Of a stretch of 64,000 nucleotides of DNA, positions 2,436 to 62,873 are shown piece by piece. The stretch spans positions 124,001 through 188,000 of IMG/VR virus record IMGVR_UViG_3300021511_000003; one strand, written 5' to 3'. The notes beneath the pieces were generated by a model. The model ran no database searches. It was not told where the DNA came from and saw only the letters and a list, made by a program, of their open reading frames with translations. This DNA comes from a virus. How positions within the stretch are numbered: position 1 is the first letter of the stretch; every line of letters begins with the position of its first letter. The translations under genes were made by a program, and so were the position numbers.

Positions 2436-3272
2436 ATGATTAAAATATTTCTTACAGTAAGAAATAGACTTGCTATAACAAAAAAATGTATTACAGCAAT
2501 TCGAAAACACTCAACACTACCTTATCAACTTTATGTATATAATAATCAAACAAGTTATAAAATTGAAGAACATTTTACATATTTTATGAAATTGTATAAA
2601 AATAAACAGGTTACACAAATTACATTTAACACAGATGCGTCTACATTTAATGCATTTAGTAAAGGTAGTACATGTAATTTTTTTGGCAGGCAACATGAAG
2701 AAGATCCAATGAAGGATAAATATAGTTTTTTAGTAATGCTTGATAATGATATTATCGTAACGCCTGGTTGGGATACAAAATTATTAGCTGCTTGGAAATA
2801 TGTAAATGAAAATAATATTGATAATATTAAAGTAATAGGACAATTACCTGGTGGTATTAAACAAAGAACTGATGTTCTAAAAATAAACCCTGAGTTACAA
2901 GGAAAAAGTGGAAAATTGGGCGGGTCGGGTTTATGGAGTGTTAAACCTAATTTTTTTAGAAATGTTGGTTTTTTAGATTTGAAACTATTAGTTGGTCATA
3001 ATAAAAAACACGATCAATTATATTGGAGGTTATTAGATAGAGCTTCTAAAGGAAAACCATACATTCTTGGTTTAAGAAATAAACTTGGAATACATTGTGG
3101 GAAAATGACAGGGTCGGTCTGTAATAAATTAACTAGAGGTAGAAGTATGGAAATAAATAAAAAACTTAAAACAATTGAATTTGAAAATGCAGATAAAAAA
3201 ATAAATGCTTTAAGTTTTGATGAGTTTTTTAAACTATTAATAAATAATAAAAATTTACAGTCGGATTGGTAA
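2436..3272 (+). CDS. Family 2-like glycosyltransferase (GT-A)
   Basis: The start MIKIFLTVRNRLAITKKC is typical of a GT2 N-terminus, and LVMLDNDIIVTPGW carries the metal-binding DxD-type motif. ATG at 2436 is preferred over an in-frame upstream start because the GT2 beta-strand begins there. About 280 residues, single domain, presumably cytosolic. It lies between the HNH gene and a pair of paralogous transferase-like genes. Acceptor and donor unknown. Confidence 0.75.
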   Translation: MIKIFLTVRNRLAITKKCITAIRKHSTLPYQLYVYNNQTSYKIEEHFTYFMKLYKNKQVTQITFNTDASTFNAFSKGSTCNFFGRQHEEDPMKDKYSFLVMLDNDIIVTPGWDTKLLAAWKYVNENNIDNIKVIGQLPGGIKQRTDVLKINPELQGKSGKLGGSGLWSVKPNFFRNVGFLDLKLLVGHNKKHDQLYWRLLDRASKGKPYILGLRNKLGIHCGKMTGSVCNKLTRGRSMEINKKLKTIEFENADKKINALSFDEFFKLLINNKNLQSDW

Positions 3273-5259: not shown

Positions 5260-6260
5260 TGACTATGAAAATAATATTTGATTTAAGACGGACTGGGTTA
5301 GGTAATAATGGTGGTTCAATGACATTAATCAGATCGGGTAATGCACTTGTTGATTTGGGTCATAATGTTACATTCATTGATAGTGGAAGGAACCAGCATA
5401 CATGGACTCCATTAAAATCCAAACATATAATATGTAATAGTGATGAAAATATTCCTGATTCTGATTTTATAATCGCTACAGGGTATAAATCGGTTATCCC
5501 AACGGTTCAAGCCCCAAAACGATGTGGTGTTAAAATACATTGGTTAAGAGGTTGGGAAACATGGATTATGCCTGAAAATAGAATAATAGAAACTATTTTA
5601 AAAGCACCAACAATTAAATTGGTGAATAGTATATGTTTACAAAGAAAATTAAAGAGATACGGAGTTGAATCAACAATTATAAGACCTGGTTATGATTTGG
5701 ATGAATTGTATCCAATGAATGTAAGAAATGATCGAAAAATAATAATTCTTGGTGGTCTTTATTCAAAAGGCAAACATTGGAATATTAAACGAACACAGTG
5801 GATTTTTGATGCTTATAATATTTTAAAAAATAAATATGATGTGAAACTATGGATGTTTGGAAATAGTTCAATGTCACATAAAGTTGATAAATATATTCAA
5901 AACCCATCAATTAATCAAAAAAAATATTTTTATAATAATATTAATATTTGGTTAGCGCCAGCTATGCAGGAAGGTTTACATATGCCACCTGCTGAAGCGA
6001 TGATGACCGGATGCCCAGTTGTTGGTACAGAAGCAGATATGTCGGGGATTGAAGATTATTTGGTTCATGGGCGTACTGGTTTTATAGCAGAAAATAATTT
6101 TGAATCATTTTTAGAAAATATTGAAAGATTGATAAATGATGAACCGTTGAGAATATATATGGGTGAATGGTCAAGGGAGATGATAGAACACTTAGGTACA
6201 AGACAATTTAATATGTCAAAACTTATTAAATATTTTATGAGAATTATAAATGATATATAA
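5259..6260 (+). CDS. Glycosyltransferase family 4 (GT-B)
   Basis: Group 1 type transferase. RTGLGNNGGSMTLIRSG is the N-terminal acceptor-domain loop. APAMQEGLHMPPAEAMMTGCPVVGTEADMSG contains the E(x7)E-like donor-site motif of GT4. About 330 residues, full length for the family. Start at 5259 follows GGAAAGG. It overlaps the downstream GT-D-like gene by 11 bases, suggesting translational coupling. Confidence 0.85.
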   Translation: MTMKIIFDLRRTGLGNNGGSMTLIRSGNALVDLGHNVTFIDSGRNQHTWTPLKSKHIICNSDENIPDSDFIIATGYKSVIPTVQAPKRCGVKIHWLRGWETWIMPENRIIETILKAPTIKLVNSICLQRKLKRYGVESTIIRPGYDLDELYPMNVRNDRKIIILGGLYSKGKHWNIKRTQWIFDAYNILKNKYDVKLWMFGNSSMSHKVDKYIQNPSINQKKYFYNNINIWLAPAMQEGLHMPPAEAMMTGCPVVGTEADMSGIEDYLVHGRTGFIAENNFESFLENIERLINDEPLRIYMGEWSREMIEHLGTRQFNMSKLIKYFMRIINDI

Positions 6261-32770: not shown

Positions 32771-33181
32771 TTACAATAATTTCAAATGACTGGTAATTTT
32801 ATCAATATTTGAAATTTCATCTGGACCAATTGCCAATGCTGTATATGTTGCTACTCCGTGAAATTCAGTTAAACCAGAATCATGAATCAATGCATTGATT
32901 ATTTTATAATCATCAGCAGATTTTTTTAAAGATAACAATTCTTCTTCTGAATCACAACTAACAACAATTTTTGTAAATAAACCAGTTAACCACTGATATA
33001 AAGGTTTATCATGGTGCATTGTCACCCCTATTGTTGTATATTCCTCGTAAAATTCTGAATGATGCATTAAATCTAAAATAGCTTTCATAGAAGCGTGAGC
33101 TCCCTGAGCAATCATTTTACCCTTCCTCATATTTAAATCTTTTCTGATTACAATTACTTGTTTAGTTTTCATTATAATCAT
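32771..33181 (-). CDS. pth2: Peptidyl-tRNA hydrolase, Pth2 family
   Basis: KQVIVIRKDLNMRKGKMIAQ and GAHASMKAI form the Pth2 N-terminal core (K/R-G-K-x-x-A-Q-x-x-H). IVVSCDSEEELLSLKKSADD and GPDEISNIDKITSHLKLL the rest. Rescues tRNAs from dropped-off peptidyl-tRNA. Located between tRNA-Lys and tRNA-Cys. Pth2 is the archaeal/eukaryotic type, rare in bacteria but seen in phages. Confidence 0.8.
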   Translation of the reverse strand: MIIMKTKQVIVIRKDLNMRKGKMIAQGAHASMKAILDLMHHSEFYEEYTTIGVTMHHDKPLYQWLTGLFTKIVVSCDSEEELLSLKKSADDYKIINALIHDSGLTEFHGVATYTALAIGPDEISNIDKITSHLKLL

Positions 33182-33687: not shown

Positions 33688-34449
33688 TCATATTTTTTCT
33701 CCTTCAATTTCTTTTATATCATCTTTTACTTTTGTATAATCGACTCGTTTTTGATAAGTGCCTTGCAATTCTTTTGCTAAAGCATCTTTGATTTTTTGGA
33801 GGTCACCGAGTCTCATTACAACATCATCTAACTGCCCATCGCTCATTAAATCATTAATTGTATCTTCAATAATAATCAAAGGGTCAAACTCTGACTGACG
33901 ATTTTGAGCCTCTGATCTTGATCTTGCTTCTAGATGATCACATATCATTAAAATTGCTGATTCTATGCATGTTGGAATTGTACCTTTATAACGATAATGA
34001 TCCTCAACGTCGCTTCCTGATTTTTTAAAGAAGTATTTCATTACTGAAGTACCATGATGTTGAGTTGCAATTTTAATCAATTCAATGGGAAAAACACCTT
34101 CGTGTAATAATATAAAAGCTGTGTCCGAAATGTGTCTACTTATAATTTGAAAACTTATTTTTGGATCAAGGTTATCGTGTGCATTTTCACTATCTAATTG
34201 ATTTTCTGTAAAATAGTTGGGATTTATGATTTTACCAACATCATGATACAATGCCGCAACTTTCATAAATGTTATATCAAGACCTAAGTCAATTGAAATT
34301 GCTTCAACCATCGATGCCAAGTTTTGTGAATGTTTATAACTACCAGGGCACATTTCTCTAAATTTGTTTAATAAAGGATAAGAAGTTTCAAGTAGGTCTT
34401 TTAGAACATCTTTTTCTTTTTCATCATGTTGACTAATTTCATCGACCAT
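33688..34449 (-). CDS. PgpH/YqfF-like HD phosphohydrolase
   Basis: GSYKHSQNLASMVEAI, ALYHDVGKIINPNYFTENQ, NAHDNLDPKISFQIISRHI, ATQHHGTSVMKYFF and LMICDHLEARSRS match the HD domain of PgpH-type c-di-AMP phosphodiesterases in order. The membrane and 7TMR parts are absent (253 residues). Predicted soluble metal phosphohydrolase that could act on a cyclic nucleotide signal; substrate not shown. Confidence 0.75.
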   Translation of the reverse strand: MVDEISQHDEKEKDVLKDLLETSYPLLNKFREMCPGSYKHSQNLASMVEAISIDLGLDITFMKVAALYHDVGKIINPNYFTENQLDSENAHDNLDPKISFQIISRHISDTAFILLHEGVFPIELIKIATQHHGTSVMKYFFKKSGSDVEDHYRYKGTIPTCIESAILMICDHLEARSRSEAQNRQSEFDPLIIIEDTINDLMSDGQLDDVVMRLGDLQKIKDALAKELQGTYQKRVDYTKVKDDIKEIEGEKI

Positions 34450-34476
34450 TATATCTCCTAACTTTGATTAAAATGG

Positions 34477-34551
34477 TACCCCCGGCAGGATTCGAACCTG
34501 CGACTTCCTAGTTCGTAGCCAGGCGCTCTATATCCACTGAGCTACGGGGGC
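34477..34551 (-). tRNA. tRNA-Arg(ACG)
   Basis: Loop CTACGAA; acceptor GCCCCCG/CGGGGGT with G1-U72 wobble; A73; encoded CCA. Confidence 0.93.
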
Positions 34552-34558
34552 TTATTTA

Positions 34559-35251
34559 TTAATAAGGATAATCAATAATTGTAATTTTATCCGAATAGTA
34601 CCACTCAAACATATTTCTTCTAAGTTTAGCCATATAGATTTTATTTTCAGCTTTTCTTCTCAGATTATAAAATACTATACCTTCTGCCATAATATCTTTA
34701 TTTCCTTGTTTTGTAGCAAACCGAGAAATAAGCCAATCTTTAAACCATAGACTCCAATTATCAAACGTTCTATCATGTTCATGAAATGATCTATATGATA
34801 GATGTTTAACTGCTTTTTCAAAAGGATACCAAATATGTGTTTTCAATTTATAAGGATTCCCCTGTAGTTTTGGTCCTATTAATTCGCCAGCTTGAACCCC
34901 ATCTTGTTTTACATACCCTTTTGAAATTGCTTGAAAAACACCTTCGATGATAAATGTTTTTCCTTTTATAATTTGTAATGGGTCAATTACATTTTTTCTA
35001 TTTTGAAGAGCAGTTAATCTACCATTTTCTGTCATGAGTTTTATATTGCTACCATCTAATTTTTCTACTGCAAAAGTATCTTTATCCTCAAATACCCACT
35101 CATATCCAGGAGTGATTTCAGTAGTTACTAAATATGCAGATGGTCTTCGTAATTGTAATTTTCTTCCATATTTTTTCCATTCAGTTATGTTCACGTCAAA
35201 GTCCTTTCTAATAAAAGGACATTGTAGTTTTGGAAAGTTTGTTAGTACCAT
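34559..35251 (-). CDS. RNA ligase-like nucleotidyltransferase
   Basis: FAVEKLDGSNIKLMTENGRL is ligase motif I (KxDG), TFIIEGVFQ motif III-like, MAEGIVFYN motif IV and KIYMAKLRRNMF motif V. 230 residues, close to the catalytic domain of Rnl2-type RNA ligases. Placed among tRNAs, so tRNA repair after anticodon-nuclease attack is a fair inference. Confidence 0.7.
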   Translation of the reverse strand: MVLTNFPKLQCPFIRKDFDVNITEWKKYGRKLQLRRPSAYLVTTEITPGYEWVFEDKDTFAVEKLDGSNIKLMTENGRLTALQNRKNVIDPLQIIKGKTFIIEGVFQAISKGYVKQDGVQAGELIGPKLQGNPYKLKTHIWYPFEKAVKHLSYRSFHEHDRTFDNWSLWFKDWLISRFATKQGNKDIMAEGIVFYNLRRKAENKIYMAKLRRNMFEWYYSDKITIIDYPY

Positions 35252-35277
35252 TTTTACACCTATATGTATTATTGTGT

Positions 35278-36180
35278 TTATTCAGTTATTGTTCTTAATT
35301 TATTAATATACATTTCCATTTCATCAAGAACTGAATTGATTGAGATATTCGTTGTAATTGCATTTTTTAAAGAACCATAATGATGCTCGAGACATTGAAG
35401 AAGTAAAGATTTGATTTTATCTTCATCTGGAGAATGTTGTAATGAACTAAATGTATATAATGACTCAAGTTCTTTTTCTTTTATTTTAAAGTATTCAACT
35501 AATTGGTCTTGACTCCATTCACCACTTCTAATTGATTTTAACTGTTCTCTATTTCTTTCAAGATCAAGATTATGTTCAGTTAGTATTTGTTCTATTTCAT
35601 TTAATAAACGAACTACATGATATGCAAATTTTAAATCATATCCATATTTCTGAATCATATCATATCGTGAACTTCCAGGTTCAGGATTTTTAATTTTCAT
35701 TTTATGAAGTTGGCTATAAGCATACCCTTTAAATCTATACCATGCTCCTTTATGAAGAAACAATTTTCGGTTTTCTCTGACTAATTCACCTACAGCAGTA
35801 GAATGTAAAATACACCGTATAGGAACGAAAAGAGAGTCAATCATATTGGGATTATTTTGCATACACAATTGAAAATATTTAACAATTGAATATATAGTAA
35901 AATCATATTCTTTTTTAGCACTTATATCATTTACATGGTGTTGTTGCCATTGTTCAAATCTTTTATGTTGTTTTCCAAACCCTTGAATTATTCCATTTAA
36001 ATTAGGAAATACAACATGTTTTGGTGGAATACAAAATCCATAAATATCCATATCTGATGTATCAGATGAAACACCATAAGCAACAGACCCCATAATTACT
36101 TCATATTGTACATTGTTTTTTAGAAATCCAGGTGGTCGAATTAATTGCCTGGATGTTAGTCTATCAATAATTGATCCCAT
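35278..36180 (-). CDS. DNA polymerase beta-superfamily nucleotidyltransferase
   Basis: EVIMGSVAYGVSSDTSDMDI is the GS(x)xYG...SDxD motif of the YcgL/minimal nucleotidyltransferase group. The helical C-terminal half (KYGYDLKFAYHVVRLLNEIE) is also typical. 300 residues. Located next to the CCA-adding enzyme. Exact substrate unknown; RNA or protein nucleotidylation possible. Confidence 0.7.
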   Translation of the reverse strand: MGSIIDRLTSRQLIRPPGFLKNNVQYEVIMGSVAYGVSSDTSDMDIYGFCIPPKHVVFPNLNGIIQGFGKQHKRFEQWQQHHVNDISAKKEYDFTIYSIVKYFQLCMQNNPNMIDSLFVPIRCILHSTAVGELVRENRKLFLHKGAWYRFKGYAYSQLHKMKIKNPEPGSSRYDMIQKYGYDLKFAYHVVRLLNEIEQILTEHNLDLERNREQLKSIRSGEWSQDQLVEYFKIKEKELESLYTFSSLQHSPDEDKIKSLLLQCLEHHYGSLKNAITTNISINSVLDEMEMYINKLRTITE

Positions 36181-36213
36181 ATATATCACCTTTTATATCA
36201 TGACCTATATAAA

Positions 36214-37560
36214 TTAAATTTTTATTCTCTTTATAATTTTAATAAGGTCTTTTTTATTATTCACTATTGGATTTTCAATCACTGCATCAAGTAATATCTT
36301 GAGAATTTTACCAACGTTTGGTCCTGGTGGAATATTTATACATTCCATTACATCTTTACCATTAATTGCTAAATCTGTAACATTAAATTCTCCAGATAAG
36401 GTTATGTGCCTAGCTTCATAAATCATCATAACCATTTTTTTCAATTCTGTTTTTGAATAATCAGAAACTCCCAAATTTCCTTTTTTATCAGCTACTTTTA
36501 ATTTAAACCAATCTTTCCAATTGACCTTATGTTCAGAAAAGAGTCGTAGCATTCTTCTTACCCCTTTTCTTTTTATATCTTTTGATAAACTTCTCATATG
36601 AAATCTTGTTAGATCACTTACTCGTTTAATTTCATCTTTACTAAATACATATTTGTTCATCCACTCTTTAACAAGTCTTTGACCAATATCTTCATGATCA
36701 ACAAAATTTTCTTCGTTTGATTCTATCCATGCATCAGGTTTGCCAATATCATGAATATATCCTGTTAATCTTAATATAGGATCTTTTGGTGAAATATTAT
36801 CACCAACTAATTTAAAATGTGTACATAAAGTTTCATTGTGATATTTACCACCAGGAAACCCATATAGTCTATCAAGTTCAGGAAATATATTTTTTAATAA
36901 GCCTGTTTCATGTAATACATCGAAAAATATACTTGGTTTTTTGTATGGCATTGCTTTCATAAATTCAAGTCTTATTCTTTCCGGTGAAACTTTTAATATA
37001 AGATCGCAATTTTTTTTAATTGCTAAAAAGGTAGATTGATCTAAGGTTCCTTCAATCAGGCAAGTAAATCTTGCGGCACGGATCATTCTTAAATAGTCTT
37101 CATAAATTCGTTGTTCAGCATTTCCTACAAACCTTATAATTTTATTTTCAAGATCTTTTCTACCGTTGAATTTATCTATCACTTCACCAGTATAAGGACA
37201 TACTGCCATGGCGTTAAATGTAAAATCTCTACGCATTAAATCATCATCTAAAGTTTCGCACGCAGTAGTAATACAATTATGACGCCCAGGTTTCATATTT
37301 TTATCAGATCTATATGTTGAAACCTCAATACTATCTATTAATGTTACAAGAAAGCTTGCTCCTACAAGATCTACTTTACGATCAGGAAAGATATGTGCAA
37401 GATCATCGGGGGTTGCATCTGTAACAATATCATAATCATGAGGATCAAAATCTGCAAATATATCTCGTACTGCTCCTCCAACTAAATACGCACTCCAACC
37501 ACATTCACATATTCTTTGAATTAACTTATCACTTAATTCTTCTTCAGTATTGCTTTTCAT
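36214..37560 (-). CDS. cca: CCA-adding tRNA nucleotidyltransferase with HD domain
   Basis: SAYLVGGAVRDIF and HDYDIVTDATPDDL supply the class II nucleotidyltransferase active site; LMRRDFTFNAMAV, RIYEDYLRMIRAARF and SPERIRLEFMK are the neck and body motifs. LTGYIHDIGKPDAW is a following HD domain. 448 residues, full length. Would repair tRNA 3' ends and mature the two tRNAs here that lack an encoded CCA. Confidence 0.92.
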   Translation of the reverse strand: MKSNTEEELSDKLIQRICECGWSAYLVGGAVRDIFADFDPHDYDIVTDATPDDLAHIFPDRKVDLVGASFLVTLIDSIEVSTYRSDKNMKPGRHNCITTACETLDDDLMRRDFTFNAMAVCPYTGEVIDKFNGRKDLENKIIRFVGNAEQRIYEDYLRMIRAARFTCLIEGTLDQSTFLAIKKNCDLILKVSPERIRLEFMKAMPYKKPSIFFDVLHETGLLKNIFPELDRLYGFPGGKYHNETLCTHFKLVGDNISPKDPILRLTGYIHDIGKPDAWIESNEENFVDHEDIGQRLVKEWMNKYVFSKDEIKRVSDLTRFHMRSLSKDIKRKGVRRMLRLFSEHKVNWKDWFKLKVADKKGNLGVSDYSKTELKKMVMMIYEARHITLSGEFNVTDLAINGKDVMECINIPPGPNVGKILKILLDAVIENPIVNNKKDLIKIIKRIKI

Positions 37561-42142: not shown

Positions 42143-42213
42143 CAGGTCAGTGGGATTTGAATCCAACTTCTGGGTTTGGAGTCCAGTATTCTTACCGTTA
42201 GAACTACTGACCT
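42143..42213 (-). tRNA. tRNA-Trp(CCA), short T-arm region
   Basis: Loop CTCCAAA gives CCA; acceptor AGGTCAG/CTGACCT; G73; encoded CCA. Only 71 bases: variable region plus T-arm are about 2 bases short and the T-stem has a mismatch. Confidence 0.8.
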
Positions 42214-42228
42214 GTAAATATTTTTTGG

Positions 42229-42304
42229 TGACCCCGACGGGACTCGAACCCGTGTATTGAGGGTGAAGGCCTCATATCCTTATGCCTATTAGGACTACGG
42301 GGTC
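42229..42304 (-). tRNA. tRNA-Glu(TTC), C33
   Basis: Stem TGAGG/CCTCA around loop CCTTCAC gives TTC with C at 33. Acceptor GACCCCG/CGGGGTC, A73, encoded CCA. Confidence 0.88.
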
Positions 42305-43084: not shown

Positions 43085-43470
43085 TGGTGGACCAGCTGGG
43101 AGTCGAACCCAGTTCCGCAAAAATTCAAATTAAGTATCTACACTCATAGTCAACTTTTAGATTTAGTTACCCCCACGTTCAAACACGGAGTTGACATAAC
43201 AACGGAGCCAACGGTGTACATTTGCTGGTAAGTTTGAAAATAAGAATGCCAGTTTGCAGTACCATTGCCCATTCTTATTTCGATCTCTTTACGTCGATGC
43301 CCCATCCCAATTCAAGAGAATAATTGGGTGGAACAGATTAAGCAGCTTTTGCGAAATCGGTGTAATAATCGTCTGCAATTATTGTTAGTGATAATGTTTT
43401 TACGGAGTAACATATCATTCTCCGGAGTGCAACTTTTTTTTCTTTTCCACGTCGAAACCTTTTCTGGCCC
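43085..43470 (-). ncRNA. ssrA: tmRNA (ssrA), tag ADDYYTDFAKAA
   Basis: 5' end GGGCCAGAAAAGGTTTCGAC matches the tmRNA consensus; 3' end has the T-arm TGGGTTCGACTCCCA and CTGGTCC-A-CCA, pairing with GGGCCAG including a G3-U70 pair needed for alanylation. The tag frame (43376-43338) starts at GCA and reads ADDYYTDFAKAA, then TAA. Adds a degradation tag to proteins on stalled ribosomes. Single-piece form, in a phage tRNA island beside a YqeY-like gene. Confidence 0.93.
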
Positions 43471-43478
43471 ATATAAAT

Positions 43479-44036
43479 TTATAAGTTCAATAATATATTT
43501 TTAATAAAGTTTCCATCAGATCCTTTAAATCGTTTCATGATTGGACCCATTGCTTGCATTTTATTCTTGAATCTACTCATATCAAGCCCTTTTATATATC
43601 TAATAATTTCTTCTTTATTTACTTGAGCAGGAAGATATTTTTTAGCGATTTTAATATTATGTGATATTAATTTATCGTCCAACTTTTGAATTTTATCTTT
43701 GACTATTTTTTTAACTTCTGCTGGAGTCTTACCAGATACATCAGCTTCTTTTAAAAATTTTAGCTCATACAATCTTCTTTCTTTTTCTTGATTTATATAT
43801 TTTTTCAATAACTTGATGATATCATCATCGGTAATATCTTTTGATTTTTTTCCAGTTTCAGGGAACATACTTATAATTGCTCTTGAAACTGTTTTTTGTG
43901 CAATCATAATGTTATATGCTGTTTTAGTTTCTTTACTGTTAGCCAAAAATACAATAACTCCTTTCTTTCTATATTTTATTTCAATTTCCATTGCGTATTT
44001 CAGATCAGCTCTTATTCTTTTTAATATTTTACTCAT
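43479..44036 (-). CDS. YqeY/GatB C-domain-like protein
   Basis: SKILKRIRADLKYAMEIEIK at the start, a helical middle, KKYLPAQVNKEEIIRYIKGL and MQAMGPIMKRFKGSDGNFIK at the end follow the YqeY family, related to the tRNA-binding tail of the GatB amidotransferase subunit. 185 residues, slightly long. Probably binds tRNA. The stop lies 9 bases from the tmRNA 5' end. Confidence 0.75.
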   Translation of the reverse strand: MSKILKRIRADLKYAMEIEIKYRKKGVIVFLANSKETKTAYNIMIAQKTVSRAIISMFPETGKKSKDITDDDIIKLLKKYINQEKERRLYELKFLKEADVSGKTPAEVKKIVKDKIQKLDDKLISHNIKIAKKYLPAQVNKEEIIRYIKGLDMSRFKNKMQAMGPIMKRFKGSDGNFIKNILLNL

Positions 44037-44061: not shown

Positions 44062-44133
44062 TGGCCCAGGTGGGGATCGAACCCACGAATGAGGGTTTTA
44101 GAGACCCCTGCTCTACCACTAAGCTACTGGGCC
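44062..44133 (-). tRNA. Amber-suppressor tRNA, anticodon CTA
   Basis: Acceptor GGCCCAG/CTGGGCC, D-stem GCTT/GAGC, stem GGGGT/ACCCT around loop CTCTAAA, T-arm GTGGG-TTCGATC-CCCAC. Numbering from the acceptor gives C34 T35 A36, which reads UAG. A73. CCA is not encoded (TAC follows). The amino acid cannot be told from sequence alone. Confidence 0.85.
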
Positions 44134-44138
44134 TCTAA

Positions 44139-44462
44139 TTATAGTAGAAGACTCTTAAGATTATAACTATACATACAGTATGTATATACTAATATAACTA
44201 ATGAAAAACATTTAACTAAAAGAGTTGATTCCCTTTTAGTTAATTGTTTTTTTATTCCTTTGATTGTCAAATATAAAATTAATAATAGAAATGGTATTTT
44301 TGTTAATAACATTGTTGTTTGAATGCCAATAATTCCCATAAGGTAATTAATAATGGGGTTCATTTCTATAGCATCTTTGTCTAAAATAATTATAGTTGAT
44401 ATATAATCAAAAATATTTATGAGCCAGATAAATACACAACTGATAATTAAAAATTTATTCAT
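44139..44462 (-). CDS. Small membrane protein (DUF5658-like)
   Basis: 107 residues with about three membrane helices: FLIISCVFIWLINIFDYIST, NYLMGIIGIQTTMLLTKI with the next hydrophobic run, and LVKCFSLVILVYTYCMY. Resembles small DUF5658 proteins. Function unknown. Confidence 0.55.
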   Translation of the reverse strand: MNKFLIISCVFIWLINIFDYISTIIILDKDAIEMNPIINYLMGIIGIQTTMLLTKIPFLLLILYLTIKGIKKQLTKRESTLLVKCFSLVILVYTYCMYSYNLKSLLL

Positions 44463-44749
44463 AATAAATTTAACCTTTCTGTAAACTTGCTATTCATATC
44501 AGTTGCTATTGCAGTTGTTTCATTATTCATATCTGGTTCTTTGAACTCAGTGTATGGAATTCCTTCTCTTTTAAATTTTATTTTTAAACTCTCTAACTGG
44601 TTCAAACCCTTAACACCCAAGTATATTAAGGTACCATTGTTCCAGCGAGAGAGAGGGCTGTGAAGCATATAGTCAGCAACCGCATGACCTGCTTGCACAG
44701 CCCTTTGAGATATTGAAATATCTTTACGCACAATTACGTAGAGCTTCAT
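44459..44749 (-). CDS. Pth2-type peptidyl-tRNA hydrolase-like protein
   Basis: MKLYVIVRKDISISQRAVQA and GHAVADYML fit the Pth2 N-terminus (with the QAGHA block). ETTAIATDMNSK ends it. 96 residues. Second Pth2-like gene here. Start 44749 is preceded by GGAAGG and lies within the upstream gene. Confidence 0.65.
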   Translation of the reverse strand: MKLYVIVRKDISISQRAVQAGHAVADYMLHSPLSRWNNGTLIYLGVKGLNQLESLKIKFKREGIPYTEFKEPDMNNETTAIATDMNSKFTERLNLL

Positions 44750-45017
44750 CAATCTTACCTTCCCATGATAACATGTAATTTTCAATGACATGTTTACTTG
44801 GCTTGTCATTACATGAAATTTCAATCATATTATATGGAGTTCGATTAAATAATTGACAATAAGCTATATGTTTATGTCTATAGGTCCAACGATTTTCATC
44901 CAACCCATGAACAAAACCAAAAACTTTATCTTTTCTTGTCTTTTTCTGCTCTTTGATCTTTTGTGCTAAAGATTTTTGCTCTTCTTTTATCTTATTTTTT
45001 AATTCCTTGAATGTCAT
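44724..45017 (-). CDS. Hypothetical basic protein
   Basis: 97 residues; Lys-rich helix at the N-terminus (LKNKIKEEQKSLAQKIKEQK). GGAG before ATG. Unknown. Confidence 0.5.
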   Translation of the reverse strand: MTFKELKNKIKEEQKSLAQKIKEQKKTRKDKVFGFVHGLDENRWTYRHKHIAYCQLFNRTPYNMIEISCNDKPSKHVIENYMLSWEGKIDEALRNCA

Positions 45018-62342: not shown

Positions 62343-62873
62343 ATGTCAACTGTTGTTGGTATTGTTAATAATGGTAAGGTCTGGATGGGTGCAGATAGTT
62401 TTGCAACAACAATTGATGGTGAACGTAGGCGAACTGTTTGTAACAAATTATTTATAAATGGACCATATCTTTTCGGTCATACTGGTAGTGTAAGACCTGG
62501 TCAAGTTTTAAGACGACAATTTTTTACACCACCGAAAAATGTGTTAGAATTACCAGACTGTATTCGTGACCATTTAAAAAAAAAGGAGTGTCTTATAATT
62601 AATCCTGATACTCAAACTCAGTTGTTAGAGGGCAATTTTTTGATTGCAACTAATCATGGGAAATTGTATGAATTTCTTTCTGATTTTCAAATGAATGAAG
62701 TTATAGATCATACTGCAATTGGATCTGGTGCACCCTTTTCTTTGGGTTCATTATATACAACCAGGAAAGTTTATAACAATACTCATAGACTTAAAGTAGC
62801 GCTTCATGCTGCTGCGGTATATGATCTTCATACAGGACCACCATTTATTATCAAAGAATTTCTTGAAGATTAA
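62343..62873 (+). CDS. HslV/proteasome-like Ntn hydrolase
   Basis: STVVGIVNNGKVWMGADSFA has Thr one residue into the chain, as after Met removal with Ser/Thr nucleophile strand. KLFINGPYLFGHTGS and AIGSGAPFSLGSLYTT match HslV/beta-subunit strands. 176 residues, same as HslV. No ATPase partner in the window. May degrade host or phage proteins. Confidence 0.75.
   Translation: MSTVVGIVNNGKVWMGADSFATTIDGERRRTVCNKLFINGPYLFGHTGSVRPGQVLRRQFFTPPKNVLELPDCIRDHLKKKECLIINPDTQTQLLEGNFLIATNHGKLYEFLSDFQMNEVIDHTAIGSGAPFSLGSLYTTRKVYNNTHRLKVALHAAAVYDLHTGPPFIIKEFLED

Follow-up and report, generated by a model that had tools for sequence, protein, structure and literature searches.

The phage studied here encodes a real and well-formed tmRNA, and this tmRNA belongs to a kind that is already known. 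Its degradation tag ends in Lys-Ala-Ala (KAA), a known natural type without match among the other phage tags collected here, and the lysine most likely alters the strength of the degron only modestly, if at all. The gene lies in a stretch of 64,000 nucleotides, referred to as the window, which covers positions 124001-188000 of a 223,015-base linear IMG/VR virus record and has a GC content of 29.6%.

The tmRNA gene and its surroundings

A one-piece tmRNA (ssrA) gene of 386 nt with encoded CCA was found at 43470..43085 on the minus strand, and the ends given by ARAGORN and Rfam agree. The features of the gene, together with two protein-coding genes of the window, are the following:

43085..43470, minus strand: tmRNA gene (ARAGORN; RF00023)
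43338..43376, minus strand: tag reading frame GCA..UAA, encoding ADDYYTDFAKAA and stop (sequence, ARAGORN)
43464..43470, minus strand: 5' strand of the acceptor stem, GGGCCAG, with G3 of the G3-U70 pair (7/7 pairs with 43089..43095; three pairs compensatory in related phages)
43085..43095, minus strand: 3' strand of the acceptor stem, CUGGUCC, with discriminator A and encoded CCA (sequence)
43389..43424, minus strand: pseudoknot PK1 (CGGAG/CUCCG, UGAUA/UAUCA) with conserved CCGUAAAA (pairing)
43284..43328, minus strand: pseudoknot PK2 (CCCAAUU/AAUUGGG, UCUCUU/AAGAGA) (pairing)
43225..43280, minus strand: pseudoknot PK3 (AAAUAAGAAUG/CAUUCUUAUUU, CUGG/CCAG) (pairing)
43479..44036, minus strand: YqeY/GatB-like gene directly upstream of the tmRNA (phrog_1460, 1.3e-6; PF09424, 1e-5, just under the cut-off)
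62343..62873, plus strand: HslV-family (Ntn-hydrolase-like) peptidase gene (phrog_1040, E 8.6e-17; PF00227, E of only 0.44)

The preliminary description of this DNA had reported a phage-encoded tmRNA with a G3-U70 pair, an encoded CCA and the tag ADDYYTDFAKAA-stop, and had proposed a covariance model as a check of the fold. All of these elements were confirmed by ARAGORN, RF00023 and the sequence. RF00023 accepts the fold over its full length (model positions 1-374) with 137.8 bits and an E-value of 7.7e-54, the gathering score being 47. The acceptor stem is paired at 7/7 positions, G3-U70 included, the T stem at 5/5, and the discriminator A is followed by the encoded CCA. Of the four pseudoknots that surround the mRNA-like domain in tmRNAs, three were paired completely by hand, namely PK1 (5/5 and 5/5), PK2 (7/7 and 6/6) and PK3 (11/11 and 4/4). 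The resume codon GCA follows AAUAAUU, with an A at position -4, which is critical in E. coli (A86; PMC2481249). From there, the tag frame runs for 12 codons and is closed by UAA; its coding part was placed by ARAGORN at 95-133 of the gene.

The tmRNA is separated from the YqeY/GatB-like gene before it by 8 nt and from the next ORF by about 20 nt, within a minus-strand array. A YqeY/GatB-like homologue (6001-6237) is also found near the tmRNA (2792-3151) of the viral contig L112. ARAGORN counted 23 tRNAs in the array, and Rfam found two tRNA genes missed by ARAGORN (42143-42213 and 42229-42304, minus strand). The array also holds an HD-domain protein, RNA-ligase-like and RlaP-like repair proteins and a CCA-adding enzyme, which stand in a row at 33688-37560 (minus strand) and appear to form a module for tRNA repair among the tRNA genes. 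The phage also has two PTH2-type peptidyl-tRNA hydrolase genes there (32771-33181 and 44459-44824, minus strand; PF01981, E 4.8e-33 and 7.6e-6). Between 27532 and 62873, one predicted protein each was noted for ribosomal protein S21, chaperonin Cpn10 and the DnaJ central domain.

A tRNA whose anticodon is CUA (amber), and which ARAGORN assigned to tRNA-Pyl, is encoded at 44062-44133 (minus strand), and a CUA-anticodon tRNA is present in the related phage L120 as well (2798-2875). Recoding of TAG was considered and rejected, as TAG is the stop of 17/218 ORFs found with a simple ORF caller. Since TAG still serves as a stop, the tRNA perhaps suppresses amber codons only in part; suppressor tRNAs are known to create substrates for tmRNA by causing read-through (Ueda 2002, as cited in PMC3985003).

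Related phage tmRNAs and the occurrence of KAA

Homologous tmRNAs were found in two viral records, L131 (IMGVR_UViG_3300017989_000062; tag ADDYYTEVRLAA) and L130 (IMGVR_UViG_3300037308_000440; tag AADDYNTELALAA). In a tree of 180 tmRNAs, they form one clade with the tmRNA of the window (0.90 for L131, 0.89 for L130). All three share an ADDY-type tag and a tRNA-rich neighbourhood; the tRNA array of the L130 contig is similar, and its CCA-adding enzyme shares 61% identity. The acceptor and T stems keep 12/12 pairs in the three phage tmRNAs, although in six of these pairs both bases have changed, a result reached by 0/500 shuffles. Such two-sided changes with all pairs kept indicate that the fold has been maintained, and together with the RF00023 E-value they exclude a chance match.

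In contrast to the KAA of the window, the tags of the two relatives end in RLAA and ALAA. The antepenultimate tag codon is AAA in the window and CTC in both L131 and L130. On the simplest reading of these codons, the lysine looks like a Leu-to-Lys change of three bases (CTC to AAA) in the lineage of the window. A sequencing error was considered as its source and rejected: a single error does not account for AAA against CTC in both relatives, with three bases different, and the frame closes properly. A search of INPHARED with the tmRNA and with window positions 40000-64000 found no near relatives. The exact tag pattern had no match in the viral contigs, and a shorter pattern gave six, with a tmRNA only in L114 (the same contig as L112).

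The KAA ending had been described as unusual. This stands for its low overall frequency and among viruses: out of 39 distinct viral tags collected by motif scan, 18 end in LAA and none in KAA, the nearest endings being RAA and QAA. A second KAA pattern also had no match in viral contigs, in scans with fixed motifs and spacing that miss many tmRNAs. Two candidates from the viral-contig scan for KAA tmRNAs (L077 and L082) were discarded, since their tags are GNSYALAA and the match lies off the tag. A further viral tmRNA group (L022, L060, L063, L068, L093, L095 and L099) has the ARAGORN tag ASLKIDQSFNCRYFCISTRCLVRGVA or a one-residue variant, for which the frame was perhaps miscalled.

As a novelty, however, the ending does not hold. 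In a tag census of 61 Campylobacterota genomes, KAA is the commonest ending (26), and a further 11 tags end in KVA, the two together making up 37/61. The tag end AKAA of Helicobacter pylori was noted in 2008, along with mutants (PMC2584231; see also PMC2862035). The census and the published H. pylori tag make KAA a known natural type. When 84,980 species of a genome collection were scanned for the motifs K-A-A or R(AGR)-A-A, two true tmRNAs came out, one from a MAG of the Campylobacterales (ANNTNYTPAFAKAA) and one from a MAG of the Syntrophaceae (ANDYVYAKAA), a strong undercount due to the fixed motifs and spacing, as the direct census showed. In the phylum of the Syntrophaceae MAG, LAA was found in 49 and KAA in 1 of 60 genomes, a sample that favours high-scoring tmRNAs and is not random.

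Probable trans-translation and the expected fate of tagged proteins

The gene very probably encodes a functional phage tmRNA whose role in the infected cell is ordinary trans-translation. Its fold, identity elements, reading frame, relatives and the distribution of KAA can be read from sequence. For transcription, charging, partners and proteolysis, we infer the following course. The tmRNA would be transcribed together with the surrounding tRNA and ORF array, and RNase P would cut its 5' end. Promoter-like matches in the tmRNA region were fewer than in shuffled sequence and none was convincing, which makes co-transcription with the array and tRNA-style processing likely. The host AlaRS would charge the molecule with alanine via G3-U70, and host EF-Tu and host SmpB would bring it to ribosomes that have stalled on mRNAs which are broken or were read through. 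There, it would add (A)ADDYYTDFAKAA, and translation would end at its own UAA. Searches for SmpB, ClpP and ClpX/HslU found none in the 223,015-base record, which is linear and may be incomplete. SmpB was likewise found in 0/21 other phage records tested, nearly all of them chosen for their tmRNA and possibly incomplete.

Known phage tmRNAs include those of Bxz1-like mycobacteriophages and Bacillus phage G, and 402 phages were reported among genomes to January 2021 (PMC4131195; PMC9004378). The present case resembles them in having a complete tmRNA gene in a phage genome, and SmpB was not found in this or the other tmRNA phage records tested; it differs in the KAA ending, seen in 0/39 collected viral tags. 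The tmRNA of H. pylori shares the tag end AKAA (PMC2584231), and those of many Campylobacterota the end KAA, but these are bacterial genes, and their tags are mostly of 14 residues and start with ANN.. or VNN.. instead of ADDYYT.

The tagged product would most likely still be degraded by host ClpXP (or ClpAP, FtsH, Lon), perhaps with an affinity below that of LAA, since the phage tag keeps the C-terminal Ala-Ala, the Ala at -4 and an aromatic residue (Phe) at -5. In E. coli, recognition by ClpX depends mainly on the terminal Ala-Ala-COO, while the antepenultimate residue and an aromatic two residues upstream of it add modestly (PMC7652416). The phage tag, ending in AKAA-stop, carries this Ala-Ala-COO. 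At -3, where a Leu/Val-like residue is preferred without being strictly defining, it has Lys, as do Campylobacterota tags. The preliminary description had suggested that KAA might alter stability to ClpXP. This is plausible, and the effect is probably modest, as mutation of the antepenultimate Leu raised KM only modestly (PMC7652416).

A stronger effect can be imagined, namely that Lys-Ala-Ala is an adaptation which makes tagged proteins markedly stabler, so that ribosome rescue is kept and the destruction of rescued proteins suppressed. The antepenultimate Leu does aid ClpX binding (PMC7652416), a Lys in its place would meet the positive charges of the RKH loops, both of the nearest phage tmRNAs retain LAA, and the H. 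pylori tmRNA, whose tag ends in AKAA, could not sustain growth of lambda immP22 in E. coli (PMC2862035). Still, a marked stabilisation appears quite improbable given that many Campylobacterota naturally have KAA as their standard tag, that H. pylori required tagging for stress tolerance and competence (PMC2584231), and that Ala-Ala-COO dominates over the modest -3 effect in E. coli (PMC7652416). The lambda immP22 result also counts against ordinary trans-translation by the phage tmRNA, as does a finding from H. pylori, where replacing AA by DD gave a tagged protein little extra stability (PMC2584231), which indicates that degradation rules differ between hosts. It is highly improbable that the lysine was selected to split rescue from proteolysis, with host ClpXP sparing the product, or to steer it to another protease, the phage's own HslV-family peptidase included. 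Routing to that peptidase in particular, also raised in the preliminary description, is extremely improbable. The gene at 62343..62873 is real according to its phrog_1040 match, but the link to the tag is unsupported. HslV acts together with the HslU unfoldase, and the sole AAA_2-like match in the record, which may be incomplete, is a clamp-loader-like protein, leaving an HslV-family protein with no HslU/ClpX-type AAA_2 partner. Moreover, phrog_1040 occurs in only 2/23 other phage records (nearly all tmRNA-chosen), whose tags end in LVA and IAA, and in neither of the LAA-tag relatives L131 and L130, both partial records. Its homologues are scattered among unrelated phages; in Microbacterium phage WaterT, terminase and portal follow the homologue after a few genes. 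The protein had no sequence match in PDB, and its alignment-free structure prediction reached a pLDDT of 32.

Another proposal concerns the origin of the lysine: the phage tag would copy that of a Campylobacterota-like host, its end being matched to the degradation machinery of that host. This is compatible with ordinary trans-translation and adds an origin for Lys. It is in Campylobacterota that KAA is most frequent, the tag end NYTPAFAKAA from Campylobacterales resembles YYTDFAKAA, and the GC content of the window points the same way. However, while the distal part of the phage tag is Campylobacterota-like, its proximal half (ADDYYT) and the aligned RNA are closer to what is seen in the phylum to which the Syntrophaceae MAG belongs (ADNYYTQPVALAA, ADNYNTPIALAA), with two phyla sampled. 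Copying of such a host is considered unlikely. Within ordinary trans-translation, the -3 Lys would have arisen as a change in this lineage and corresponds to a natural type already known from the Campylobacterota.

Neither the KAA ending nor the presence of a tmRNA in a phage is new, as phage-encoded tmRNAs are already well documented. What the window offers is a clean phage tmRNA along with two related phage genes from which it differs at one key position of the tag (KAA vs LAA). This trio provides a natural comparison for the question of whether phages tune degron strength.
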